From assembly GCF_003259365.1 (NCBI RefSeq), contig NZ_QLLY01000003.1, forward strand, positions 434,001 through 498,000: a DNA stretch of 64,000 nucleotides. The letters run 5' to 3'. The notes beneath the pieces were generated by a model. The model was not told the origin of the DNA. It worked only from the letters and a program-made list of their open reading frames with translations, and made no database searches. Source of the stretch: Streptomyces sp. PsTaAH-137 (GTDB taxonomy: Bacteria; Actinomycetota; Actinomycetes; Streptomycetales; Streptomycetaceae). The translations under genes and the position numbers were made by a program. This document shows positions 23,850-41,845 of the stretch, in pieces. The first letter of the stretch is position 1, and every line of letters starts with the position of its first letter.

Positions 23850-26315
23850 ATGGCCCGCCGCAGCACGAAGACCCCGCGACCCGATGACGACGCTGCCTTC
23901 GAGGAGAGGATCCTCGACATCGACGTGGTCGACGAAATGCAGGGCTCCTACCTGGAGTACGCGTACTCGGTCATCTACTCCCGCGCCCTGCCCGACGCAC
24001 GCGACGGGATGAAGCCCGTCCACCGCCGCATCGTCTATCAGATGAACGAGATGGGGCTGCGCCCCGAGCGCGGCTATGTGAAGTGCGCCCGCGTGGTCGG
24101 CGAGGTCATGGGTAAGTTGCACCCCCATGGCGACGCGTCGATCTACGACGCGCTGGTGCGTCTGGCCCAGCCTTTCTCCATGCGCGTCCCGCTGGTCGAC
24201 GGCCACGGCAACTTCGGCTCGCTGGGCAATGACGACCGCCCTGCCGCCATGCGATACACCGAGTGCCGCCCGGACGCCGCCGCGGCCCTGATGACGGACT
24301 CGATCGACGAGAACACGGTCGACTTCACGCCGAACTACGACGGGCAGGAGCAGGAGCCCCTGGTCCTCCCGGCGGCCTACCCGAACCTGCTGGTGAACGG
24401 CGCGTCGGGCATCGCGGTCGGCATGGCCACGAACATGCCGCCGCACAACCTGGGCGAAGTGATCGCCGCCGCGCGGCACTTGATCAAGCACCCCGGAGCG
24501 GACCTCGAGACGCTCATGAAGTTCGTGCCGGGACCCGACCTGCCGACCGGCGGCCGGATCGTCGGCCTGTCCGGCATCAAGGACGCCTACGAGTCCGGGC
24601 GCGGCACCTTCAAGATCCGGGCGACGGTCGCGGTGGAGACCGTGACGGCGCGCCGCAAGGGCCTCGTCGTCACGGAGCTGCCCTTCGCGGTCGGCCCCGA
24701 GAAGGTCATCACGAAGATCAAGGAACTGGTCGGCGCGAAGAAGCTCCAGGGCATCGCCGACGTCAAGGACCTCACCGACCGTGAGCACGGCCTGCGCCTG
24801 GTCATCGAGATCAAGAACGGCTTCGTGCCGGAGGCCGTCCTGGAGCAGCTCTACAAGCTGACGCCGATGGAGGAGTCCTTCGGCATCAACAATGTGGCAC
24901 TGGTCGACGGCCAGCCGCTCACCCTCGGCCTCAAGGAGCTCCTCGAGGTCTATCTGGACCACCGGTTCACCGTGGTGCGCCGCCGCAGCGAGTTCCGCCG
25001 CAGCAAGAAGCAGGACCGGCTGCACCTGGTGGAGGGCCTGCTCGTCGCCCTGGTCGACATCGACGAGGTCATCCGCATCATCCGCTCCAGTGAGAACAGC
25101 GCGGAGGCCAAGCAGCGCCTCATCGAGCGCTTCTCGCTGAGCGAGATCCAGACGCAGTACATCCTGGACACCCCGCTGCGCCGGCTCACCAAGTTCGACC
25201 GCATCGAGCTGGACGCGGAGCGCGACAAGCTCAACGGCGAGATCGACGAGCTGACCGGGATCCTCGACTCGGACACGGAGCTGCGCAAGCTGGTCTCCAC
25301 CGAACTGGCCGCTGTAGCGAAGAAGTTCGGCTCCGACCGGCGCACGGTGCTCCTGGAGTCCGCGGGCACCCCGGTCGCCTCGGTGTCGCTGCAGGTGGCC
25401 GACGACCCGTGCCGCGTGCTGCTCTCCTCGACGGGCCTGCTGGCCCGTACGGCGAACGGCGAGCCGTTCCAGGGGGACGACGGCGCCAAGCGCGTCAAGC
25501 ACGACCTGATCGTCTCCGCGGTGCCGGCCACGGCCCGGGGCGAGATCGGTGTGGTCACCTCCGAGGGCCGCCTGCTGCGGCTGAACGTGATCGACCTGCC
25601 CCAGCTCCCGGACACGGCGTCCGTGCCGAACCTGTCGGGTGGCGCGCCGATCTCCGAGTTCCTGTCCTCCCTGGAGGCCGACGAGAAGGTCATCTGCCTG
25701 ATGACGCTCGACGAGTCGTCTCCGGGCCTGGCCATCGGCACCGAGCAGGGCGTGGTCAAGCGCGTGGTGCCCGACTATCCGGCCAACAAGGAGGAGCTGG
25801 AGGTCATCTCCCTCAGGGACGGTGACCGGATCGTGGGCGCGATCGAGCTGCGGACGGGCGAGGAGGATCTGGTCTTCGTCACGGACGACGCGCAGTTGCT
25901 GCGCTTCCAGGCGTCCATCGTGCGGCCGCAGGGCCGTCCCGCGGGCGGCATGGCGGGTGTGAAGCTGGCGACGGGCGCGAAGGTCATCTCGTTCACCGCG
26001 GTCGATCCCGCGGTCGACGCGGTGGTGTTCACGGTGGCCGGTTCGCGCGGCACGCTCGACGACTCGGTGCAGACGACGGCGAAGCTGACGCCGTTCGACC
26101 AGTACCCGCGCAAGGGCCGCGCCACGGGCGGTGTGCGCTGCCAGCGGTTCCTGAAGGGCGAGGACTGCCTGAGCCTGGCCTGGGCGGGACCGGCGCCCGC
26201 GCGCGCGGCGCAGAAGAACGGGACTCCGGCCGAGTTGCCCGAGATGGATCCGCGCCGCGACGGCTCGGGCGTCTCGCTGGCGAAGACGGTGGCGGTGGTG
26301 GCGGGACCCGTCTAG
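23850..26315 (+). CDS. parC: DNA topoisomerase IV subunit A
   Basis: An 821-residue type IIA topoisomerase A subunit. The breakage-reunion domain has YSVIYSRALPDARDGMKPVHRRI (about 39-61), the quinolone-region motif KLHPHGDASIYDALV and the active Tyr in AAMRYTECR (about 136). A tower and coiled coil (KKQDRLHLVEGLLVALVDIDEVI) follow, then six-bladed C-terminal repeats from about 500. It lacks the GyrA-box pattern QRRGGKG, supporting topo IV; with parE 13 kb away it decatenates chromosomes. The start has AAGGAG 12 nt upstream, a long spacing. Its stop codon overlaps that of the CobW gene. Confidence 0.93.
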   Translation: MARRSTKTPRPDDDAAFEERILDIDVVDEMQGSYLEYAYSVIYSRALPDARDGMKPVHRRIVYQMNEMGLRPERGYVKCARVVGEVMGKLHPHGDASIYDALVRLAQPFSMRVPLVDGHGNFGSLGNDDRPAAMRYTECRPDAAAALMTDSIDENTVDFTPNYDGQEQEPLVLPAAYPNLLVNGASGIAVGMATNMPPHNLGEVIAAARHLIKHPGADLETLMKFVPGPDLPTGGRIVGLSGIKDAYESGRGTFKIRATVAVETVTARRKGLVVTELPFAVGPEKVITKIKELVGAKKLQGIADVKDLTDREHGLRLVIEIKNGFVPEAVLEQLYKLTPMEESFGINNVALVDGQPLTLGLKELLEVYLDHRFTVVRRRSEFRRSKKQDRLHLVEGLLVALVDIDEVIRIIRSSENSAEAKQRLIERFSLSEIQTQYILDTPLRRLTKFDRIELDAERDKLNGEIDELTGILDSDTELRKLVSTELAAVAKKFGSDRRTVLLESAGTPVASVSLQVADDPCRVLLSSTGLLARTANGEPFQGDDGAKRVKHDLIVSAVPATARGEIGVVTSEGRLLRLNVIDLPQLPDTASVPNLSGGAPISEFLSSLEADEKVICLMTLDESSPGLAIGTEQGVVKRVVPDYPANKEELEVISLRDGDRIVGAIELRTGEEDLVFVTDDAQLLRFQASIVRPQGRPAGGMAGVKLATGAKVISFTAVDPAVDAVVFTVAGSRGTLDDSVQTTAKLTPFDQYPRKGRATGGVRCQRFLKGEDCLSLAWAGPAPARAAQKNGTPAELPEMDPRRDGSGVSLAKTVAVVAGPV

Positions 26316-28834: not shown

Positions 28835-30001
28835 TCACACGACCGGCACCGCCACCGGCGGCTCCACCCCCACATAGCGCGCCGCAGGCCTGATGATCTT
28901 CGAGTCCTGAGCCTGCTCCAGGATGTTGGCGCTCCAGCCGACGACCCGCGCCGCGGCGAACGTCGGCGTGAACATCGCGCGCGGCAAGCCGCACAGCTCC
29001 ATGACCACGCCCGCGTAGAACTCCACGTTCGTGTGCAGTTCCCGGCCCGGCTTCAGTTCGGCGAGGATCGCCTCGACATGGCGTTCGACCTCGACCGCGA
29101 ACTCCACCAGCGGCCCGCCGAACCCCTCCGCGATCCCGCGCAGCATCCGTGAACGCGGGTCCTCCGTGCGGTAGACGGGGTGCCCGAAGCCCATGATCCG
29201 GTCACCGGCCAGCACCCGTTCCCGGATCCAGGGATCGATACGGTCCGGGGTGCCGATCGCGTCCAGGGTGTCGAGCGCACGGCTGGGCGCGCCGCCGTGC
29301 AGCGGCCCGGACAGCGCCCCGATCGCGCCGACCAGACAGGCTGCGACATCCGCGCCGGTCGACGTGATGACACGCGCCGTGAATGTTGACGCATTGAAAC
29401 CGTGGTCAATGGTGGAGATGAGGTACTTCTCCACGGCTCGCGCGTGCGCGGGGTCCGGCTCCGAACCCGTCAGCATGTAGAGGTAGTTGGCCGCGTAGGA
29501 GAGATCCGCGCGCGGCTCCACCGGCTCGAGCCCCTCGCCGAGCCGGTGCAGAGCGGTGAGCATCGTGGGGACCACGGCGGCCGCGGCGAGGGTGTCCTCA
29601 CGGCGCCGGTCGGCGTCGATGTCGTAGACGGGCCGGAGGCCGCGGGAGGCCCCGAAGAGCGACAGGGCCGTACGGAGCCCGGCCAGCGGCCCCGACAGCG
29701 CGCCGGCCCGGGCGATGGCGGGCAGCGCCGCGCGCACCTCGTCGGGAAGGGTGCGCAGCGCGGCGGTCTCACGGGCGAAGGCGGCCGACCGCTCGGCGTC
29801 GGGCAGCTCGCCGTGGATCATCAGGTGCCAGACGTCCTCGAAGCTGCGGCTCTGCGCGAGTTCGACGGCGGAGTACTGGCGGTAGTGGTAGAAGCCCTCG
29901 CGCCCTCTGACGTCCCCGAGCGCGGTGTCGGTGACGACGACACCGGCGAGCCCGCGCGGTACGTCGACGACAGAGGTGGCCGTGGTCCCGTTGATCAGCA
30001 T
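28835..30001 (-). CDS. Citrate synthase family protein
   Basis: A 388-residue type-II-small citrate/methylcitrate synthase homologue. The first two catalytic His regions are intact: DHGFNAST (about 203) and MGFGHPVYRTEDPR (about 266). The third position, usually Asp in NVDFY, is Glu here (NVEFY, Glu327, codon 29021-29023), so activity may be altered. The start is the ATG at 30001 with GGGAGGAAAC. It is divergent from an HTH-citrate synthase. The housekeeping citrate synthase is probably elsewhere, which leaves a specialised or regulatory role open. Confidence 0.88.
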   Translation of the reverse strand: MLINGTTATSVVDVPRGLAGVVVTDTALGDVRGREGFYHYRQYSAVELAQSRSFEDVWHLMIHGELPDAERSAAFARETAALRTLPDEVRAALPAIARAGALSGPLAGLRTALSLFGASRGLRPVYDIDADRRREDTLAAAAVVPTMLTALHRLGEGLEPVEPRADLSYAANYLYMLTGSEPDPAHARAVEKYLISTIDHGFNASTFTARVITSTGADVAACLVGAIGALSGPLHGGAPSRALDTLDAIGTPDRIDPWIRERVLAGDRIMGFGHPVYRTEDPRSRMLRGIAEGFGGPLVEFAVEVERHVEAILAELKPGRELHTNVEFYAGVVMELCGLPRAMFTPTFAAARVVGWSANILEQAQDSKIIRPAARYVGVEPPVAVPVV

Positions 30002-30016
30002 GTTTCCTCCCTTTAC

Positions 30017-30069
30017 TTGATTCGACTGTCCATGCTTGACTTATCTTCTGTCAATATTGACTGAATCAA
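30017..30069. promoter_or_regulatory. Nested palindromes between divergent citrate-synthase genes
   Basis: A perfect palindrome GTCAATATTGAC lies at 30050-30061, the pair TTGATTC (30017-30023)/GAATCAA (30063-30069) encloses it, and TTGAC (30036-30040) pairs with GTCAA (30050-30054). The AT-rich block stands out in this genome and is the only gap between the two promoters. Likely operator, possibly for the HTH domain of the plus-strand gene. Confidence 0.6.
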
Positions 30070-30111
30070 CCTAAGCAATCAATCTGTCGTCCTCCGGATA
30101 CGGTGACGCAC

Positions 30112-31389
30112 ATGAGGGATCAAGAACCGGGGCCACCGGCCGCCGCCCGTCAGGCTCGTCGACTGAGCACCCGGGAGACCGCGGAGCTGCTCGGCGTGAA
30201 GCCCGAGACCGTGTACGCGTACGTGAGCCGGGGCCAGCTCACGAGCCGACGGGGCGAGGGCAGGCGCGGCAGCACCTTCGACGCCACCGAGGTCGAGGCC
30301 CTGGCCCGGCGCAACAAGCGCGAGAGCACGACGAGTTCGACGGCGAACGAGCTGACGGTGCGCACCCGGCTCACCCTCATCGACGCGGACCGTTACTTCT
30401 TCCGGGGGGTCGATGCCGTGGAGCTGGCGAAGCGCCACTCCTACGAGGAAGTGGCGGAGTGGCTGTGGACCGGGACCCTGCGCCCCGGTGCCCGGTTCAC
30501 CGCGCCGCAGGAGTCACGCGCGGCGGCCGCGCGCGCGGTCGCGGCGCTGCCCGAATTCACCAGCCCCGTGGACCGGTTGCGGGTCGCGGCCGTCGCCGCC
30601 GCCACCGCCGACCCGCTGCGCTACGACCTGTCCGAGGAGTCCGTCCTCGGCGCCGCGCGCTCCCTCATCCCGACGCTCGCGACCGCTCTGCCCCTGGTGA
30701 GGTCCACGTACGCGGACGGCGAACCGATCGCTCGACGGCTGTGGGGCCGGCTGTCCCACAAGATGCCCGACGAGGCGTCCCTGCGCGTTCTCGACATGGC
30801 CCTCGCGCTGCTCGCCGACCACGACCTCGCCGCCTCGACGCTCGCCGTCCGTGTGGCGGCGTCGGCCCGCGCGCACGCGTACGCGGCCGTCTCCGCGGGT
30901 CTGGGCGTCCTGGAGGGTCCGCTGCACGGCGCGGCGAGCGGCCTGGCCCACCGGATGCTCCTGGACGTCCTGGACCGCGGTGGCGCGGGACCGGTCGTCT
31001 CCGACGAACTGCGCGCGGGGCGCCGCGTCCCCGGGCTCGGGCACCGCCTCTACCAGGGCGAGGACCCGCGCGCGCAGGCGCTGTTCGCGGCGCTGGAGGA
31101 GTTGCCCGAGGCGCGGCCCGCGCTGGCCGCGGCCCGTGACGTGGTGGCGACGACGGCCCGCCACACCGACCTGCACGCCAATGTGGACCTCGCGCTCGCC
31201 GTGTTCACCGCCTCCTTCGGGATGCCGGCCGAGGCGGGCGAGACGGTGTTCGCCGTCGCGCGTACGGCGGGCTGGATCGCCCACGCTCTGGAGGAGTACG
31301 GGGAACGGCCCCTGCGGATGCGGCCCTCGGGCCACTACGTAGGCGCGCGTCCGCCGCAGCCACTGCCGGTACCACCAGGGCAGGAATGA
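30112..31389 (+). CDS. Citrate synthase with N-terminal helix-turn-helix
   Basis: A 425-residue fusion. Residues about 15-65 form a MerR/excisionase-like helix-turn-helix (LSTRETAELLGVKPETVYAYVSRGQL). The rest is a citrate-synthase fold. Catalytic His, His and Asp appear kept, though the flanks are unusual: DHDLAAST (for DHxxNAS), LGHRLYQGEDPR (for GHPVY) and NVDLALAVF (for NVDFY). Either it is an active enzyme that also binds DNA, or the fold serves as a metabolite sensor; the sequence cannot decide. The ATG at 30112 has GGTGA 5 nt ahead; GTG 30103 is an alternative. The gene at 31417 follows by 27 nt. Confidence 0.88.
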   Translation: MRDQEPGPPAAARQARRLSTRETAELLGVKPETVYAYVSRGQLTSRRGEGRRGSTFDATEVEALARRNKRESTTSSTANELTVRTRLTLIDADRYFFRGVDAVELAKRHSYEEVAEWLWTGTLRPGARFTAPQESRAAAARAVAALPEFTSPVDRLRVAAVAAATADPLRYDLSEESVLGAARSLIPTLATALPLVRSTYADGEPIARRLWGRLSHKMPDEASLRVLDMALALLADHDLAASTLAVRVAASARAHAYAAVSAGLGVLEGPLHGAASGLAHRMLLDVLDRGGAGPVVSDELRAGRRVPGLGHRLYQGEDPRAQALFAALEELPEARPALAAARDVVATTARHTDLHANVDLALAVFTASFGMPAEAGETVFAVARTAGWIAHALEEYGERPLRMRPSGHYVGARPPQPLPVPPGQE

Positions 31390-31416: not shown

Positions 31417-32343
31417 GTGAGTACGTGCACGACCGCATCGCGGGATCTCGACGAGCCCCTCGCCGGGACCGCGGCCACCGCCCGGACCTGGCTGCTGATT
31501 GAGCAGTCGGGTCCCTGGGGCGCCAAGGCCCTGACCTCCAGCCATCTGGACCCCGCCGTGGGCCGCGCCCTGGAGAGGGCCGCCGAAGGCACCGGCGTGC
31601 GCGTCGCACTGGTGCGCCGGCCGGGTCGGCACGCGGACCGTCACGGACAGCCCAGGCGCCAGGTGTACGTGGCCCATACCGCTCCCGGTGACGCCTGGCT
31701 GCGCAGCGCCACGATCACGGCTCCCGAGGAACTGCTCACGCTCGATTTCGCCGCTCTGGGGGCGGGCGCTCACGGCGGCTTCGGCACACCTCACGAGGGC
31801 GCTCCGCTCGCGCTCGTCTGCACGAACGGAAAGCGGGACCACTGCTGCGCCGTCCTGGGCCGGCCGCTCGCCTCCGAACTCGCGCTCTCCGGCGAGGAGG
31901 GCGTGTGGGAGGTCACCCACCTCGGCGGCCACCGCTTCTCCCCCACCCTCCTGGTGCTGCCGTACGGCTACGCCTACGGACGGTCCACGGCCGCGGAGGT
32001 GAAGGAGATCCTTGAGGCGGTCCGTACGGGCCGCGTCGTCACCGATGGGTGCCGTGGCAGCTCTGCCTGGGACCGCCCGGGCCAGGCGGCTGAGCTCGCG
32101 GTGCGCCGGGCCGCCCGCGAGGACGCCGCCGATGCCCTGACGGTCGTACGTACGCAGGCCGTCGAGGGCGAATCCCCGTGCTGGGAGGTGACGCTCGCGC
32201 ACGTCGACGGGCGCCGGTGGCAGGTCGCGGTGGCTCAGGGGACGTCCGCGCCGCCGCGCCCCGAGAGCTGCGGTGCCGCCCTCGGATCACCGGCCCGCAT
32301 GGATGTCGTGGGGCTGCGGGAGATGCCCGCGCCTCTCGGCTGA
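31417..32343 (+). CDS. Sucrase/ferredoxin-like family protein
   Basis: A 308-residue protein of the sucrase/ferredoxin-like family (thioredoxin-like [2Fe-2S] fold). Hallmarks are LVCTNGKRDHCCAVLGRPLA (about 135-154, cluster cysteines) and THLGGHRFSPTLLVLPYG (about 170-187). The N-terminus has Cys4 in MSTCTT. Function in bacteria is not settled; redox or metal-related. It starts at GTG 31417, 27 nt after the HTH-citrate synthase on the same strand, so co-transcription is likely. Confidence 0.87.
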   Translation: MSTCTTASRDLDEPLAGTAATARTWLLIEQSGPWGAKALTSSHLDPAVGRALERAAEGTGVRVALVRRPGRHADRHGQPRRQVYVAHTAPGDAWLRSATITAPEELLTLDFAALGAGAHGGFGTPHEGAPLALVCTNGKRDHCCAVLGRPLASELALSGEEGVWEVTHLGGHRFSPTLLVLPYGYAYGRSTAAEVKEILEAVRTGRVVTDGCRGSSAWDRPGQAAELAVRRAAREDAADALTVVRTQAVEGESPCWEVTLAHVDGRRWQVAVAQGTSAPPRPESCGAALGSPARMDVVGLREMPAPLG

Positions 32344-32442: not shown

Positions 32443-34110
32443 ATGAGCACGACTCCCCCTGCCCGCCGCCTGCGTCTCGGCCTGCCCAGGCGCATGTTCG
32501 CGCAGGTGCTGGTCATGCAGCTGGCGATCGCGGCCGGTGTCGCCGTGCTCGCGACCGGGCTGTTCCTGGCGCCCCTGAGCGACCAGTTGGACGACCAGGC
32601 GATGCGGCGGGCCCTGGCCATCGCGCAGACCACGGCGGCCCAGCCGCGGATCGCCGACGATCTGCGGTCCACCCGGCCCACGGTCGGCGGGCCCGTGCAG
32701 GCCGCGGCGGAGCGGATCCGGCGGGCCAGCGGCGCCGAGTACGTCGTGATCATGAACAAGAAGGGTGTGCGCTGGTCGCACACCGACGTCGCACAGATCG
32801 GCAAGGTCGTCTCGACGGACCCCAGCGAGGCGCTGGAGGGCCACGACGTGATGCAGATCGACGACGGGACCCTGGGCCGCTCCGCGCGCGGCAAAGTGCC
32901 CCTCAGGGGCCGTGACGGCACCATCGTGGGCGCGGTGTCGGTCGGGATCGAGTACGACAGCGTCCGGGCCCGCCTTGTCCACGCGATCCCCGGCCTGTTC
33001 GCGTACGCGGGCGGGGCGCTGGCCGTCGGGGCGCTGGCCGCCTATCTGATCTCCCGCCGGGTGCAGCGGCAGACGCGCGACCTGGCCTTCTCGGACATCG
33101 CCGCGCTCCTCGCCGAGCGCGAGGCGATGCTGCACGGCATCCGGGAGGGCGTCGTCGCCCTGGACAGCGGCGGCCGCATCCGGCTGCTGAACGACGAGGC
33201 GCAGCGACTGCTCGGCCTCGACGCGGCGTCGATCGGACAGCCGTTGGAGGCCGCGCTCGGCCCCGGGCGGACGACCGACGTGCTCGGCGGGCGGGTCGCC
33301 GGCACCGATCTGCTGACCGTGCGCGGGCAGCGCGTGCTCGTCGCCAACCGGATGCCCACCCACGACGGGGGCGCCGTCGCCACCCTGCGCGACCGGACCG
33401 AGCTGGAGCAGCTCGGCCGCGAACTCGACTCCACGCGCGGCCTGATCGACGCCCTGCGCGCCCAGGACCACGAGCACGCCAACCGGATGCACACCCTGCT
33501 GGGGCTGCTGGACCTCGAGATGTACGAGGACGCCGCGGAGTTCGTGGGCGAGGTGGTCGGTGACCACAGGGCGACGTCGGAGCAGGTCACCGAGAGGATC
33601 CATGATCCGCTGCTGGCCGCGCTGCTCGTCGGCAAGGCGTCCGTGGCGGCGGAACGGGGCGTGGCCCTGGTGCTGTCCGACCGCACGCTGCTGCCCGACC
33701 GGCTGATCGATCCGCGCGGTCTGGTGACCGCGGTGGGCAATCTGGTCGACAACGCGCTGGACGCCGTCGCGGGCACTGCGCACGCGCGCGTGGAGGTCGA
33801 ATTGCGGGCGGAAGGGACGACGGCGGTCGTGCGCGTGCGGGACACCGGGCCCGGAATCCCGCGGGACAAGCGGGAGTTGGTCTTCACCGAGGGCTGGTCC
33901 ACGAAGAAGCCTCCCGTGCACGGCAAGCGCGGGATCGGTCTGGCCCTGGTGCGCCGGCTCGCGGAGCGGCAGGGCGGCCGCGCCACGGTCACGGAGGCCG
34001 ACGGCGGCGGAGCCCTGTTCACGATCGTGCTGCCCGACGCCCTCACCGAACCAGCCTCCGGTGCCGCGCACGACGGCGCGGGCGCCCTGGCGACGGAGGA
34101 GTCGCGATGA
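32443..34110 (+). CDS. Sensor histidine kinase, CitA/DcuS type
   Basis: A 555-residue membrane kinase. TM1 is at about 24-44, then an extracytoplasmic PAS-like sensor (about 45-175), TM2 (about 183-205), a cytoplasmic PAS domain (about 215-320), a SpoOB-like dimerisation helix with the phospho-acceptor in LRAQDHEHANRMHTLLGLL (about 340) and an ATPase domain with NLVDNALDAV and GKRGIGLALV. Relatives sense C4-dicarboxylates or citrate. It overlaps the response-regulator gene by 4 nt (ATGA). The sodium-solute symporter across the terminator could be a target. Confidence 0.9.
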   Translation: MSTTPPARRLRLGLPRRMFAQVLVMQLAIAAGVAVLATGLFLAPLSDQLDDQAMRRALAIAQTTAAQPRIADDLRSTRPTVGGPVQAAAERIRRASGAEYVVIMNKKGVRWSHTDVAQIGKVVSTDPSEALEGHDVMQIDDGTLGRSARGKVPLRGRDGTIVGAVSVGIEYDSVRARLVHAIPGLFAYAGGALAVGALAAYLISRRVQRQTRDLAFSDIAALLAEREAMLHGIREGVVALDSGGRIRLLNDEAQRLLGLDAASIGQPLEAALGPGRTTDVLGGRVAGTDLLTVRGQRVLVANRMPTHDGGAVATLRDRTELEQLGRELDSTRGLIDALRAQDHEHANRMHTLLGLLDLEMYEDAAEFVGEVVGDHRATSEQVTERIHDPLLAALLVGKASVAAERGVALVLSDRTLLPDRLIDPRGLVTAVGNLVDNALDAVAGTAHARVEVELRAEGTTAVVRVRDTGPGIPRDKRELVFTEGWSTKKPPVHGKRGIGLALVRRLAERQGGRATVTEADGGGALFTIVLPDALTEPASGAAHDGAGALATEESR

Positions 34111-34841
34111 ACCACGTATCGGCCGACGCACCGACCGACGCACTGATCGACGTCCTGGTCGTGGACGACGACACCCGAGTGGCGCGGGTCAATGCCGCGT
34201 ACGTGGCGAAGGTCGCGGGATTCCGGGTCGCGGGCGAGGCGCACAACGCGGCCGACGCGCTCCGGATGGTGGAGGAGCGGCCCGGGCCCGATCTGGTGCT
34301 CCTGGACCACTATCTGCCCGACGGGACGGGGCTCGATCTGGTGCGCGAGATGCGCCGGCGCGGCCACCAGACCGATGTGATCATGGTGACCGCGGCCCGT
34401 GACGTGGCCACGGTGCAGGCGGCGATGCGTCAGGGTGCGCTGCAGTACCTGGTCAAGCCGTTCGCGTTCGCCGGTCTGCGCGCCAAGCTGGAGGCGTACG
34501 CGGCACTGCGGCACACCTTCGCGGGCGGCGGTGAGGCCGAACAGGCCCAGGTGGACCGGATCTTCGGCGCACTCTCCGCGACCGGGGCGCAGCCCGAGCT
34601 GCCCAAGGGGCACTCGTCGAGCACGGCGGAGCTGGTCCGCAGGACGCTGGTCGACGCCGAACGGGCGCTGTCCGCCCAGGAGATCGCCGATCTGACGGGC
34701 TTGAGCCGGCAGACCGCGCAGCGCTACCTGAAGCTGCTGGAGCGCACCGGCAGCGCGAAACTCACTCTGAAATACGGCGACGCGGGCCGCCCGGAGCATC
34801 TCTACGTCTGGGCGAACCCGCGCCGGGTGTCCGGAGCCTGA
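34107..34841 (+). CDS. Response regulator, CitB/DctR type
   Basis: A 244-residue regulator. The receiver domain (about 12-130) has acidic pocket VVDDDTRVARV, phospho-acceptor Asp in LVLLDHYLPDGTG and YLVKPFAFAGL. The C-terminal domain (about 165-235) has a helix-turn-helix SAQEIADLTGLSRQTAQRYL. It is the partner of the upstream kinase (4-nt overlap) and is followed by a strong terminator. Confidence 0.92.
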   Translation: MNHVSADAPTDALIDVLVVDDDTRVARVNAAYVAKVAGFRVAGEAHNAADALRMVEERPGPDLVLLDHYLPDGTGLDLVREMRRRGHQTDVIMVTAARDVATVQAAMRQGALQYLVKPFAFAGLRAKLEAYAALRHTFAGGGEAEQAQVDRIFGALSATGAQPELPKGHSSSTAELVRRTLVDAERALSAQEIADLTGLSRQTAQRYLKLLERTGSAKLTLKYGDAGRPEHLYVWANPRRVSGA

Positions 34842-34916: not shown

Positions 34917-36530
34917 TCACACGGCGCCCGCGCCGGTGAGCGCCCGCACCTCGGTCTCGGCGTGCTTGGCGTCGTCCGGCGGCTCGTGGGAGGTCACGGT
35001 GCCCAGCCAGCCCGCGAGGAAGCCCAGCGGGATGGAGACGAGGCCGGGGTTCTCCAGCGGGAAGTACTGGAAGTCGACGCCCGGGAACAGCGAGGTCGGG
35101 CTGCCCGAGACCACCGGCGACAGCACGACGAGCAGCAGCGCGGGCACCAGCCCGCCGTACACCGACCACACCGCGCCGCGGGTCGTGAAGTTCCGCCAGA
35201 ACAGCGAGTACAGGAGCACCGGAAGGTTGGCCGACGCGGCCACGGCGAAGGCCAGACCGACCAGGAACGCCACGTTCAGATCGCGTGCGAGCAGGCCGAG
35301 AGCGATGGCGAGCACACCGATGCCGGCCGCGGCGACCCGTGCCACCGCGACCTCGCTGCGCTGCTTGCCCACCGGCTTCCCGGTCCGGTCACGGCGCCGC
35401 AGGGAGGCGTACAGGTCGTGCGCGACGGAGGCGGAGGACGCCAGCGTGATCCCGGCGACGACGGCGAGGATCGTGGCGAAGGCGACCGCCGCGACGACCG
35501 CGAACAGCACAGTGCCACCCGTGGAGTTGGCACCGCCGCCGAGGTCGAGGGCGAGCAGCGGAACCGCCGTGTTCCCCGCCGGGTTCGACTCCCGGACCGC
35601 GCTCGATCCCACGATGGCGGCCGCGCCGAACCCGAGCACGATCGTCATCAGGTAGAAGCTGCCGATGAGCCCGATGGACCAGACGACGGAACGGCGTGCG
35701 GCCCGTGCGGTCGGCACCGTGTAGAAGCGCGAAAGGATGTGCGGAAGACCGGCCGTGCCGAGCACCAGCGCGAGTCCCAGGCTGATGAAGTCGAAGCGCG
35801 CGGTCCAGCTTCCGCCGTACTTCAGACCGGGCACGAGGAAGTCGGAACCGTGCCCGCTGCGTGCCGCGGCGGTGTGGAGCAGCTGATTGAAGTCTCCGTG
35901 GAATCGCGCCAGGACGAGCACCGTCAGGGCGATCGTGCCGCCCATGAGCAGCACGGCCTTCACGATCTGGATCCAGGTGGTGGCCCGCATCCCTCCCATC
36001 GACACATAGATCACCATGAGCGCGCCGACACCGACGACGGTCCAGGCCTGCGCGCCCCCGCTCTCCCCGCCGAGCAACAGGGCGACGAGGCTGCCCGCAC
36101 CCACCATCTGTGCCACCAGATAGAGAACGGACACGGTGACCGAGGAAGTTCCCGCGGCGATGCGCACCGGGCGCTCCCGCATCCGCGCCGCGACCACGTC
36201 GGCGAGGGTGAACCGGCCGCAGTTGCGGACCAGTTCGGCCACCAGGAAGAGGACGACGAGCCAGGCCACGAGGAAGCCCACGGAATAGAGCAGCCCGTCG
36301 TACCCGAAGAGCGCGATCACTCCCGAGATGCCGAGGAACGACGCCGCCGACATGTAGTCACCGGCAATGGCGAAGCCGTTCTCCATGGGAGAGAAGAGCC
36401 GGCCGCCGGCGTAGAACTCCTCCGCCGACCCGTGGCGGTTGCGACTCACCCATGTCGTGATCCCCAGCGTCACCGCCACGAAGGCGCTGAACAGCACCAA
36501 TGCCAGGGTCTGATGCGTCCCGGTCACCAC
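34917..36530 (-). CDS. Sodium/solute symporter (acetate-permease-like)
   Basis: A 537-residue SSS-family transporter with about 13 transmembrane helices. Conserved regions are EEFYAGGRLFSPMENGFAIAGDYMSAASFLGISG (about 34-67) and GTAGLPHILSRFYTVPTARAARRSVVW. That N-terminal motif is shared with ActP-type cation/acetate and other monocarboxylate symporters. It starts at GTG 36530, overlapping the DUF485 gene by 7 nt, the usual operon partner of such carriers. Substrate not proven; acetate, pyruvate or related acids are likely. Confidence 0.9.
   Translation of the reverse strand: MVTGTHQTLALVLFSAFVAVTLGITTWVSRNRHGSAEEFYAGGRLFSPMENGFAIAGDYMSAASFLGISGVIALFGYDGLLYSVGFLVAWLVVLFLVAELVRNCGRFTLADVVAARMRERPVRIAAGTSSVTVSVLYLVAQMVGAGSLVALLLGGESGGAQAWTVVGVGALMVIYVSMGGMRATTWIQIVKAVLLMGGTIALTVLVLARFHGDFNQLLHTAAARSGHGSDFLVPGLKYGGSWTARFDFISLGLALVLGTAGLPHILSRFYTVPTARAARRSVVWSIGLIGSFYLMTIVLGFGAAAIVGSSAVRESNPAGNTAVPLLALDLGGGANSTGGTVLFAVVAAVAFATILAVVAGITLASSASVAHDLYASLRRRDRTGKPVGKQRSEVAVARVAAAGIGVLAIALGLLARDLNVAFLVGLAFAVAASANLPVLLYSLFWRNFTTRGAVWSVYGGLVPALLLVVLSPVVSGSPTSLFPGVDFQYFPLENPGLVSIPLGFLAGWLGTVTSHEPPDDAKHAETEVRALTGAGAV

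Positions 36531-39721: not shown

Positions 39722-41845
<2,124 letters not shown>

Follow-up and report, generated by a model that had tools for sequence, protein, structure and literature searches.

In the 64,000-nucleotide stretch of Streptomyces sp. PsTaAH-137 analyzed here (the window; contig NZ_QLLY01000003.1, positions 434,001 to 498,000), a citrate synthase gene is divergent from a gene that fuses a helix-turn-helix (HTH) domain to a citrate synthase domain, and the two share a short gap with a conserved inverted repeat. A reading made from the letters alone (hereafter the sequence-only reading) had described a divergent citrate-synthase pair, one member HTH-fused, as a possible sensor and its target; both open reading frames (ORFs) lie where it placed them, and Pfam finds Citrate_synt in both and HTH_17 in the second. 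The features on which the argument rests are as follows.

28835 to 30001, minus strand: divergent citrate synthase of 388 amino acids, hereafter the partner, with Glu at the position of the catalytic Asp (ORF list, Pfam, NF009005).
30112 to 31389, plus strand: HTH-citrate synthase fusion of 425 amino acids, counted from ATG 30112 (ORF list, Pfam, predicted fold).
30163 to 30315, plus strand: HTH_17 (MerR/BldC-like) domain of the fusion, residues 18-68 (Pfam, fold comparison).
30352 to 31326, plus strand: citrate synthase domain of the fusion, residues 81-405 (Pfam, fold comparison, residue alignment).
30049 to 30070, unstranded: predicted operator core TGTCAATATTGACTGAATCAAC, consisting of TCAATATTGA (30051-30060) overlapping TTGACTGAATCAA (30057-30069) (genus alignment, pattern searches).
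30036 to 30041, unstranded: TTGACT, a half-site-like element between the left element and the core, in the same register in the genus alignment.
30017 to 30032, unstranded: left element TTGATTCGACTGTCCA, 13 of whose 16 letters equal those of the Streptomyces coelicolor MtrA site (comparison by eye).
30099 to 30104, plus strand: -10-like hexamer TACGGT, 7 nucleotides before ATG 30112.

The citrate synthase domain of the fusion scores 213.9 bits against PF00285 (Citrate_synt, cut-off 27) and its head 32.1 bits against HTH_17 (cut-off 27), with PF00376 (MerR) below its cut-off at 23 versus 28.2 bits; the protein also falls below the cut-off of all 23 NCBIfam citrate synthase families listed. Its predicted fold has a mean predicted local distance difference test score (pLDDT) of 87.7, with low model confidence in the linker (residues 73-80), and residues 73-404 match the citrate synthase fold (1a59, Z 35.9, 330 aligned residues, root-mean-square deviation (rmsd) 3.1 A). 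When the head is modeled in isolation (pLDDT 74), its best match is BldC on DNA (6ama_B, Z 7.1, 55 aligned residues, rmsd 2.5 A), tied with CarH, phage Xis and several MerR-type proteins. Translation probably starts at ATG 30112, with GTG 30103 as an alternative. Since TACGGT lies so close upstream of this ATG, the fusion mRNA is probably leaderless; a -10-like hexamer is found 6-7 nucleotides before the ATG in 56 of 58 gaps of the genus, as compared with 1.5% in mononucleotide-shuffled sequence.

The palindromes that the sequence-only reading had listed in the gap are all present: GTCAATATTGAC at 30050, TTGATTC at 30017, GAATCAA at 30063, TTGAC at 30036 and 30057, and GTCAA at 30050. It had proposed to check their conservation in orthologous gaps, and they are conserved, as 58 gaps of the genus share a 54-base block in fixed register, TTGATTCGACTGTCCATGNTTGACTNAATNNC followed by TGTCAATATTGATTGAATCAAT. 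The core, which has the form TCAAYRTTGAT-n-ATCAAYR, was located by fuzzy matching of the motif, and the column counts therefore refer to sites anchored in this way; it contains 12 invariant columns, while the outer columns mostly carry less than 0.4 bit. The conserved unit is TCAAYRTTGA overlapping TTGAY-n-RTCAA, which modifies the earlier description in two respects: GTCAATATTGAC does lie in the conserved region, but its final C is atypical for the genus, where 55 of 58 gaps have T, and the distant pairing of TTGATTC with GAATCAA has to be given up, because other lineages keep the repeat that GAATCAA forms with the adjacent TTGAC/TTGAT, whereas the left element is near background there. The gap set leaves aside L014, L015, L031, L067, L068, L069, L070 and L071 (gene missing, cut or on the same strand); the gap alignment also omits L072, and L051, whose repeat is one base longer, has no anchored core. 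The protein alignments omit L069, L071 and L072 as duplicate stretches.

Searched for in whole genomes with at most one mismatch, the 21-base pattern TGTCAAYRTTGAYYNRRTCAA is present in 60 of the 101 genomes of the genus: in 60 of the 62 that carry the fusion and in none of the 39 that do not, as a single copy except in one genome (G032), which has two. The reversed form occurs in none of the 101. Because the pattern was built from the same genus, what is informative in this result is that genomes lacking the fusion have no match and that the copy is single. The pattern is missed in two genomes with the fusion, G013 and G059; G059 keeps the repeat with one extra base (L051). Among 80 named loci, the best 80 of 583 by the fusion protein (78 Streptomyces, one Actinobacteria bacterium and one [Kitasatospora] papulosa), 74 have the core with at most two mismatches, although this set partly overlaps the 101 genomes (L142/G032 contig C80, L157/G094 contig C7, L166/G014 contig C124) and is not independent of them; in L161, L182 and L184 the repeat is retained but altered by insertions. 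In the source genome, a looser 15-mer has 15 places with at most one mismatch versus eight for the reversed control. Only two of the places are exact, the gap and one other, and we do not claim a wider regulon. The second exact copy falls within the bounds of an ABC-permease-like ORF (L231:1095-2441).

Outside the genus, 49 loci, a subset of the matches, were fetched, of which L224 and L230 lie on short contigs and have no HTH end. An inverted repeat TTGA-n-TCAA (n 3 to 9) lies 5' of the fusion in 43 of 47 non-genus loci, as compared with 0.72 expected from dinucleotide shuffles; it is present in all 19 loci where it was first defined and in 24 of the 28 fetched afterwards. TCAANN (left TCAANNTTGA) precedes it in 37 of the 43. 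Ten loci have a spacer of 5, 14 one of 6, 15 one of 8, and the other four one of 4, 7 or 9. Taken together, the register within the genus, the genome-wide linkage of the pattern and the excess of the repeat beyond the genus rule out chance palindromes. Given that the palindromes are conserved and that the motif accompanies the HTH fusion, a regulator acting on the gap appears likely from these comparisons.

Whose site is it? Beyond the genus, the repeat is kept in 36 of 38 loci with the partner within 700 bases and in seven of nine without it; in L207, one of the nine, the partner lies farther off and the repeat was not found. Two genus loci, L128 and L138, have no partner within 2.5 kb and retain the repeat. 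Conversely, the core was not found at the partner loci of G027 and G012, which have no fusion nearby. As the repeat is mostly kept where the partner is gone and the pattern is absent without the fusion, the site goes with the fusion gene, and autoregulation is the simplest reading. A motif serving the partner only is disfavored by the same partner-less loci. Control of the partner promoter is suggested by the shared gap and by the split locus of G032 (L119, contig C80), in which fusion and partner lie on the same strand, each preceded by its own operator copy; this split pair offers a natural experiment as to whether the site acts on one promoter or the other. Thus, of the control of both promoters put forward by the sequence-only reading, the part that concerns the fusion's own promoter comes first, and the part that concerns the partner is the more indirect. 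The data fit most readily with the repeat being the fusion's own operator, which may also serve the partner where they share a gap.

Among the 101 genus genomes, the fusion is found in 62 (E <= 1e-40) and the partner in 62 (1e-80); 63 have either gene, 61 both, and in 58 they are divergent neighbors. The exceptions are G013 (fusion only), G027 (partner only), G012 and G094 (partner match elsewhere) and G032 (same strand). In G094 (contig C7; L157/L015, L070), the start of the partner lies beside the fusion and the remainder ~163 kb away, which reflects either an inversion through the gene or an assembly error. In a sample of the class, the fusion query matches 53 of 296 genomes, including 17 from the genus, and 14 of 114 genera. 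In a sample of the phylum, 21 genomes outside the class match with E < 1e-70, starting at or before profile position 6, and thus with the HTH included. A citrate synthase gene is divergent within 700 bases in 38 of the 47 non-genus loci with a located fusion. Such persistent pairing, in 58 of the 63 genus genomes with either gene and in those 38 loci, together with the common fold family of the two proteins, could suggest that the fusion acts as a regulatory subunit in mixed dimers with the partner, which it would tether or tune, DNA binding being secondary. We regard this as very improbable, as several loci keep the fusion without an adjacent partner, mostly with the repeat, and as five of these partner-less loci have an unrelated enzyme as the divergent neighbor.

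This neighbor is an HMGL-like protein (L101, L102, L103, L201 and L202; five of the nine non-genus loci without a near partner), recognized by Pfam in three of the five.

L101:1154-2383, L102:1173-2438 and L103:3933-5171, like L201 and L202 loci of other families: HMGL-like genes (homocitrate/isopropylmalate synthase family).

In three of the five loci, the NCBIfam matches to homocitrate and 2-isopropylmalate synthases fall below cut-off. The repeat is kept in four of the five loci, and L201 has no repeat of the tested form. The neighbor may be another enzyme that condenses acetyl-CoA (coenzyme A) with a 2-oxo acid, which we regard as a lead. That it is the sole citrate synthase of its genome is ruled out in three of the five genomes (G182, G244 and G107), which have other Citrate_synt genes.

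The left element is a separate feature at the level of the genus, distinct from the core, because it is conserved in the genus (at most three mismatches in 45 of 58 gaps) and near background outside it (mean best 6.6 mismatches per 16 letters versus 7.1 in shuffles, and none of 47 with three or fewer), and because the repeat is kept in L138, which has no left element. L128 keeps a degenerate copy with three mismatches. In the same locus, several degenerate left-element-like units (TTGA...GTCCA) stand in a row ~60-135 bases 5' of the fusion start. In S. coelicolor, the gap of the corresponding pair contains an MtrA site, TTGACTTAACTGTCCA, that MtrA shifts in an electrophoretic mobility shift assay (EMSA), and citA3 and citA4 are both higher in an mtrA mutant at late times (PMC12323332). 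From the distances of this site to the two genes, -92 and -16 (PMC12323332), and the gene order of the pair (PMC9739823), we infer that the fusion is the equivalent of SCO5831/citA3 and the partner that of SCO5832/citA4. In addition, a review reports that GlnR controls citA and citA4 of Saccharopolyspora erythraea. It could therefore be argued from the MtrA and GlnR reports that the conserved gap is the site of a global regulator, such as MtrA or GlnR, and that the fusion's HTH is vestigial or used elsewhere. This is quite improbable in our judgment: the MtrA-like element stands apart from the core and is confined to the genus while the repeat is widespread beyond it, L138 retains the repeat alone, the 21-base pattern is missing from every genus genome without the fusion, and the HTH holds 12 of the 49 invariant columns across 18 diverse fusions.

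Judged by its sequence, the partner is an ordinary member of its citrate synthase subfamily. It scores 368.6 bits against Citrate_synt, clears the subfamily cut-off of NF009005 (343.5 versus 332 bits), and retains the oxaloacetate-site and CoA-contact residues in the residue alignment. The sequence-only reading was correct in seeing Glu in place of its catalytic Asp (NVE), but presented this as a departure from the usual, whereas Glu is ordinary in the subfamily: it is found in all 27 partners compared, in paralogue L003 of the same genome (contig C10) and in the best solved match, Bacillus subtilis citrate synthase 1 (2c6x, 264.8 bits). Glu as the sign of a dead enzyme is therefore ruled out. 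A GltA-like paralogue (L001) has Asp, and the source genome contains four Citrate_synt genes, two of which form the divergent pair. We take 2c6x to be CitA. CitA has been termed the minor citrate synthase (PMC10670878).

For the fusion, residue numbers and roles are given after the animal citrate synthase. The catalytic His/His/Asp, which the sequence-only reading had seen to be kept, are present as LHG, GLGH and NVD, and they recur in all 62 genus fusions aligned. The oxaloacetate-site equivalents H238, H274, R329 and D375 are found in 35 of 35 fusions and those of R401 and R421 in 34 of the 34 scored. The equivalent of Asn242 is replaced in 32 of 35 (29 Ala, 3 Pro), the window fusion among them, and that of His320 is gone in four of 35 (L110, L111, L113 and L203), of which the first three keep both partner and repeat, and L203 keeps the partner with no clear repeat. 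Basic residues at the two CoA-contact positions are present in only 9 and 5 of 35 fusions versus 26 and 27 of 27 partners, although the second position was taken at a fixed offset from the aligned Asp and nearby insertions could mislead; among genus fusions the counts are 12 of 62 and 1 of 61, and the window fusion has Gln and Thr. Across the fusions, only 30 of the 332 columns of the domain reach 97% conservation or more, six of them pocket residues. The fold was earlier suggested to act as an oxaloacetate or acyl-CoA sensor. Because the CoA-contact residues are mostly lost and the oxaloacetate site is kept, the first of these ligands is favored and acyl-CoA sensing is disfavored. The pattern favors the fusion being a sensor of oxaloacetate or a similar dicarboxylate, and probably not an enzyme, although it would be compatible with some weak catalytic activity.

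The retained catalytic residues, including an Asp present in every one of 35 fusions, would also suit a trigger enzyme, that is, an active (2-methyl)citrate synthase that binds DNA as well and whose regulation follows substrate occupancy during turnover. We hold this to be unlikely. It is at odds with the general absence of the basic CoA contacts, with the replacement of the pocket Asn and with the loss of His320 in loci that keep the divergent partner. Moreover, the fusion diverges faster than the partner: in all 15 loci compared, its similarity to the window fusion is lower than that of the accompanying partner to the window partner. In a tree asking whether the fusion arose by duplication of the partner, the fusion group has a support of only 0.378.

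We consider it fairly probable that the fusion is a local, self-controlled regulator that binds the gap repeat and whose citrate-synthase body reads oxaloacetate or a similar acid. DNA binding, the dimer, the ligand, the sign of regulation and the control of both promoters are what we infer, and they could be combined as follows. A citrate-synthase-fold dimer would carry two MerR/BldC-like heads, with the inverted repeat TTGAT-n-ATCAA, located between the promoters of fusion and partner in their shared gap, as the binding site. The body, with most of the oxaloacetate pocket and without the CoA contacts, would read oxaloacetate or a similar di- or tricarboxylate. If the citrate synthase domains then closed around the ligand, the two heads would be placed differently, and this in turn may switch the partner citrate synthase and the fusion's own operon.

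That operon may include the genes 3' of the fusion.

31417 to 32343, plus strand: sucrase/ferredoxin-like protein, first gene 3' of the fusion, possible operon.
32443 to 34110, plus strand: DcuS/MalK-like sensor kinase with an sCache domain, possible operon with the fusion (NCBIfam match below cut-off).
34107 to 34841, plus strand: DcuR/DpiA-like response regulator (NCBIfam matches below cut-off).

DcuS/MalK and DcuR/DpiA are families for the sensing of C4-dicarboxylates and citrate, and the DcuS/DcuR-like pair, which would be switched along with the fusion, fits a dicarboxylate theme. Farther on, an MctC-type monocarboxylate symporter gene at 34917-36530 (NF058657, 760.6 bits versus 670) is convergent with the response regulator gene, and a DUF485 gene comes next. 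Genes resembling gyrase/topoisomerase IV subunits flank the region at 23850-26315 and 39722-41845, as judged from translations only.

Several points weigh against the fusion as a self-controlled sensor, beside the residue roles taken over from animal citrate synthase and the fixed offset mentioned above. The likeness of the modeled head to a BldC/MerR-type winged helix is suggestive only, with Z below 8. Most fusions, including that of the window, retain His320 and Asp375, which a pure sensor would not need. The repeat spacing differs between lineages, from 4 to 9 bases, and four of the 47 non-genus fusion loci have no clear repeat. Within the genus, G013, L159, L170 and L179 have neither an adjacent partner nor a clear site; site loss here often accompanies partner loss, as would also be expected if the site were retained for the benefit of the partner. 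Finally, given the binding of MtrA to the S. coelicolor gap and the increase of both genes in the mtrA mutant, the gap would serve at least one other regulator, MtrA.

Regulators made of an HTH and an enzyme fold are already known as a kind. MocR/PdxR/GabR regulators join a winged HTH to an aminotransferase fold and often act on a divergently transcribed gene. The fusion is predicted to share with them an enzyme fold as the ligand-reading body behind a DNA-binding head, but it combines another fold, that of citrate synthase, with another, BldC/MerR-like HTH. Its head resembles BldC and CarH (Z ~7) and so recalls CarH and MerR-family regulators with a cofactor-binding body, although the body of CarH binds cobalamin. 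The 2-methylcitrate synthase PrpC belongs to the same fold family and stands high in the fusion's fold list, but its chains have no HTH head. We found no description of a citrate synthase as such a regulator in the open-licence PMC papers that were searched. To our knowledge, direct oxaloacetate sensors are rare (oxaloacetate is the acceptor in the first step of the tricarboxylic acid (TCA) cycle). S. coelicolor citA3/citA4 represent the same divergent pair and gap, with MtrA binding there, but in its available portion PMC12323332 calls both proteins putative citrate synthases and mentions neither the HTH head nor the core repeat. By sequence, then, the regulator-and-site module is real and strongly conserved, and both of its proteins have been filed, as far as that portion goes, as putative citrate synthases.

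We speculate, with somewhat less than even confidence, that a family of such factors is distributed across Actinomycetota, in which a citrate synthase body stripped of CoA contacts acts as an oxaloacetate sensor and controls, by way of its own operator, how acetyl units enter the TCA cycle, and that some lineages have swapped the governed enzyme for an HMGL-like condensing enzyme (possibly a Re-citrate or homocitrate synthase), the regulator and mostly the operator staying in place. For annotation, the sequence evidence is a warning: 'citA3' (SCO5831) is listed as a citrate synthase but probably encodes a regulator. If the proposal is true, a sensor with a mapped operator could provide a basis for an oxaloacetate biosensor; it would give antibiotic producers a switch for TCA entry that needs only one gene and one site, and would help explain why S. 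coelicolor and the source strain have four citrate synthase genes.

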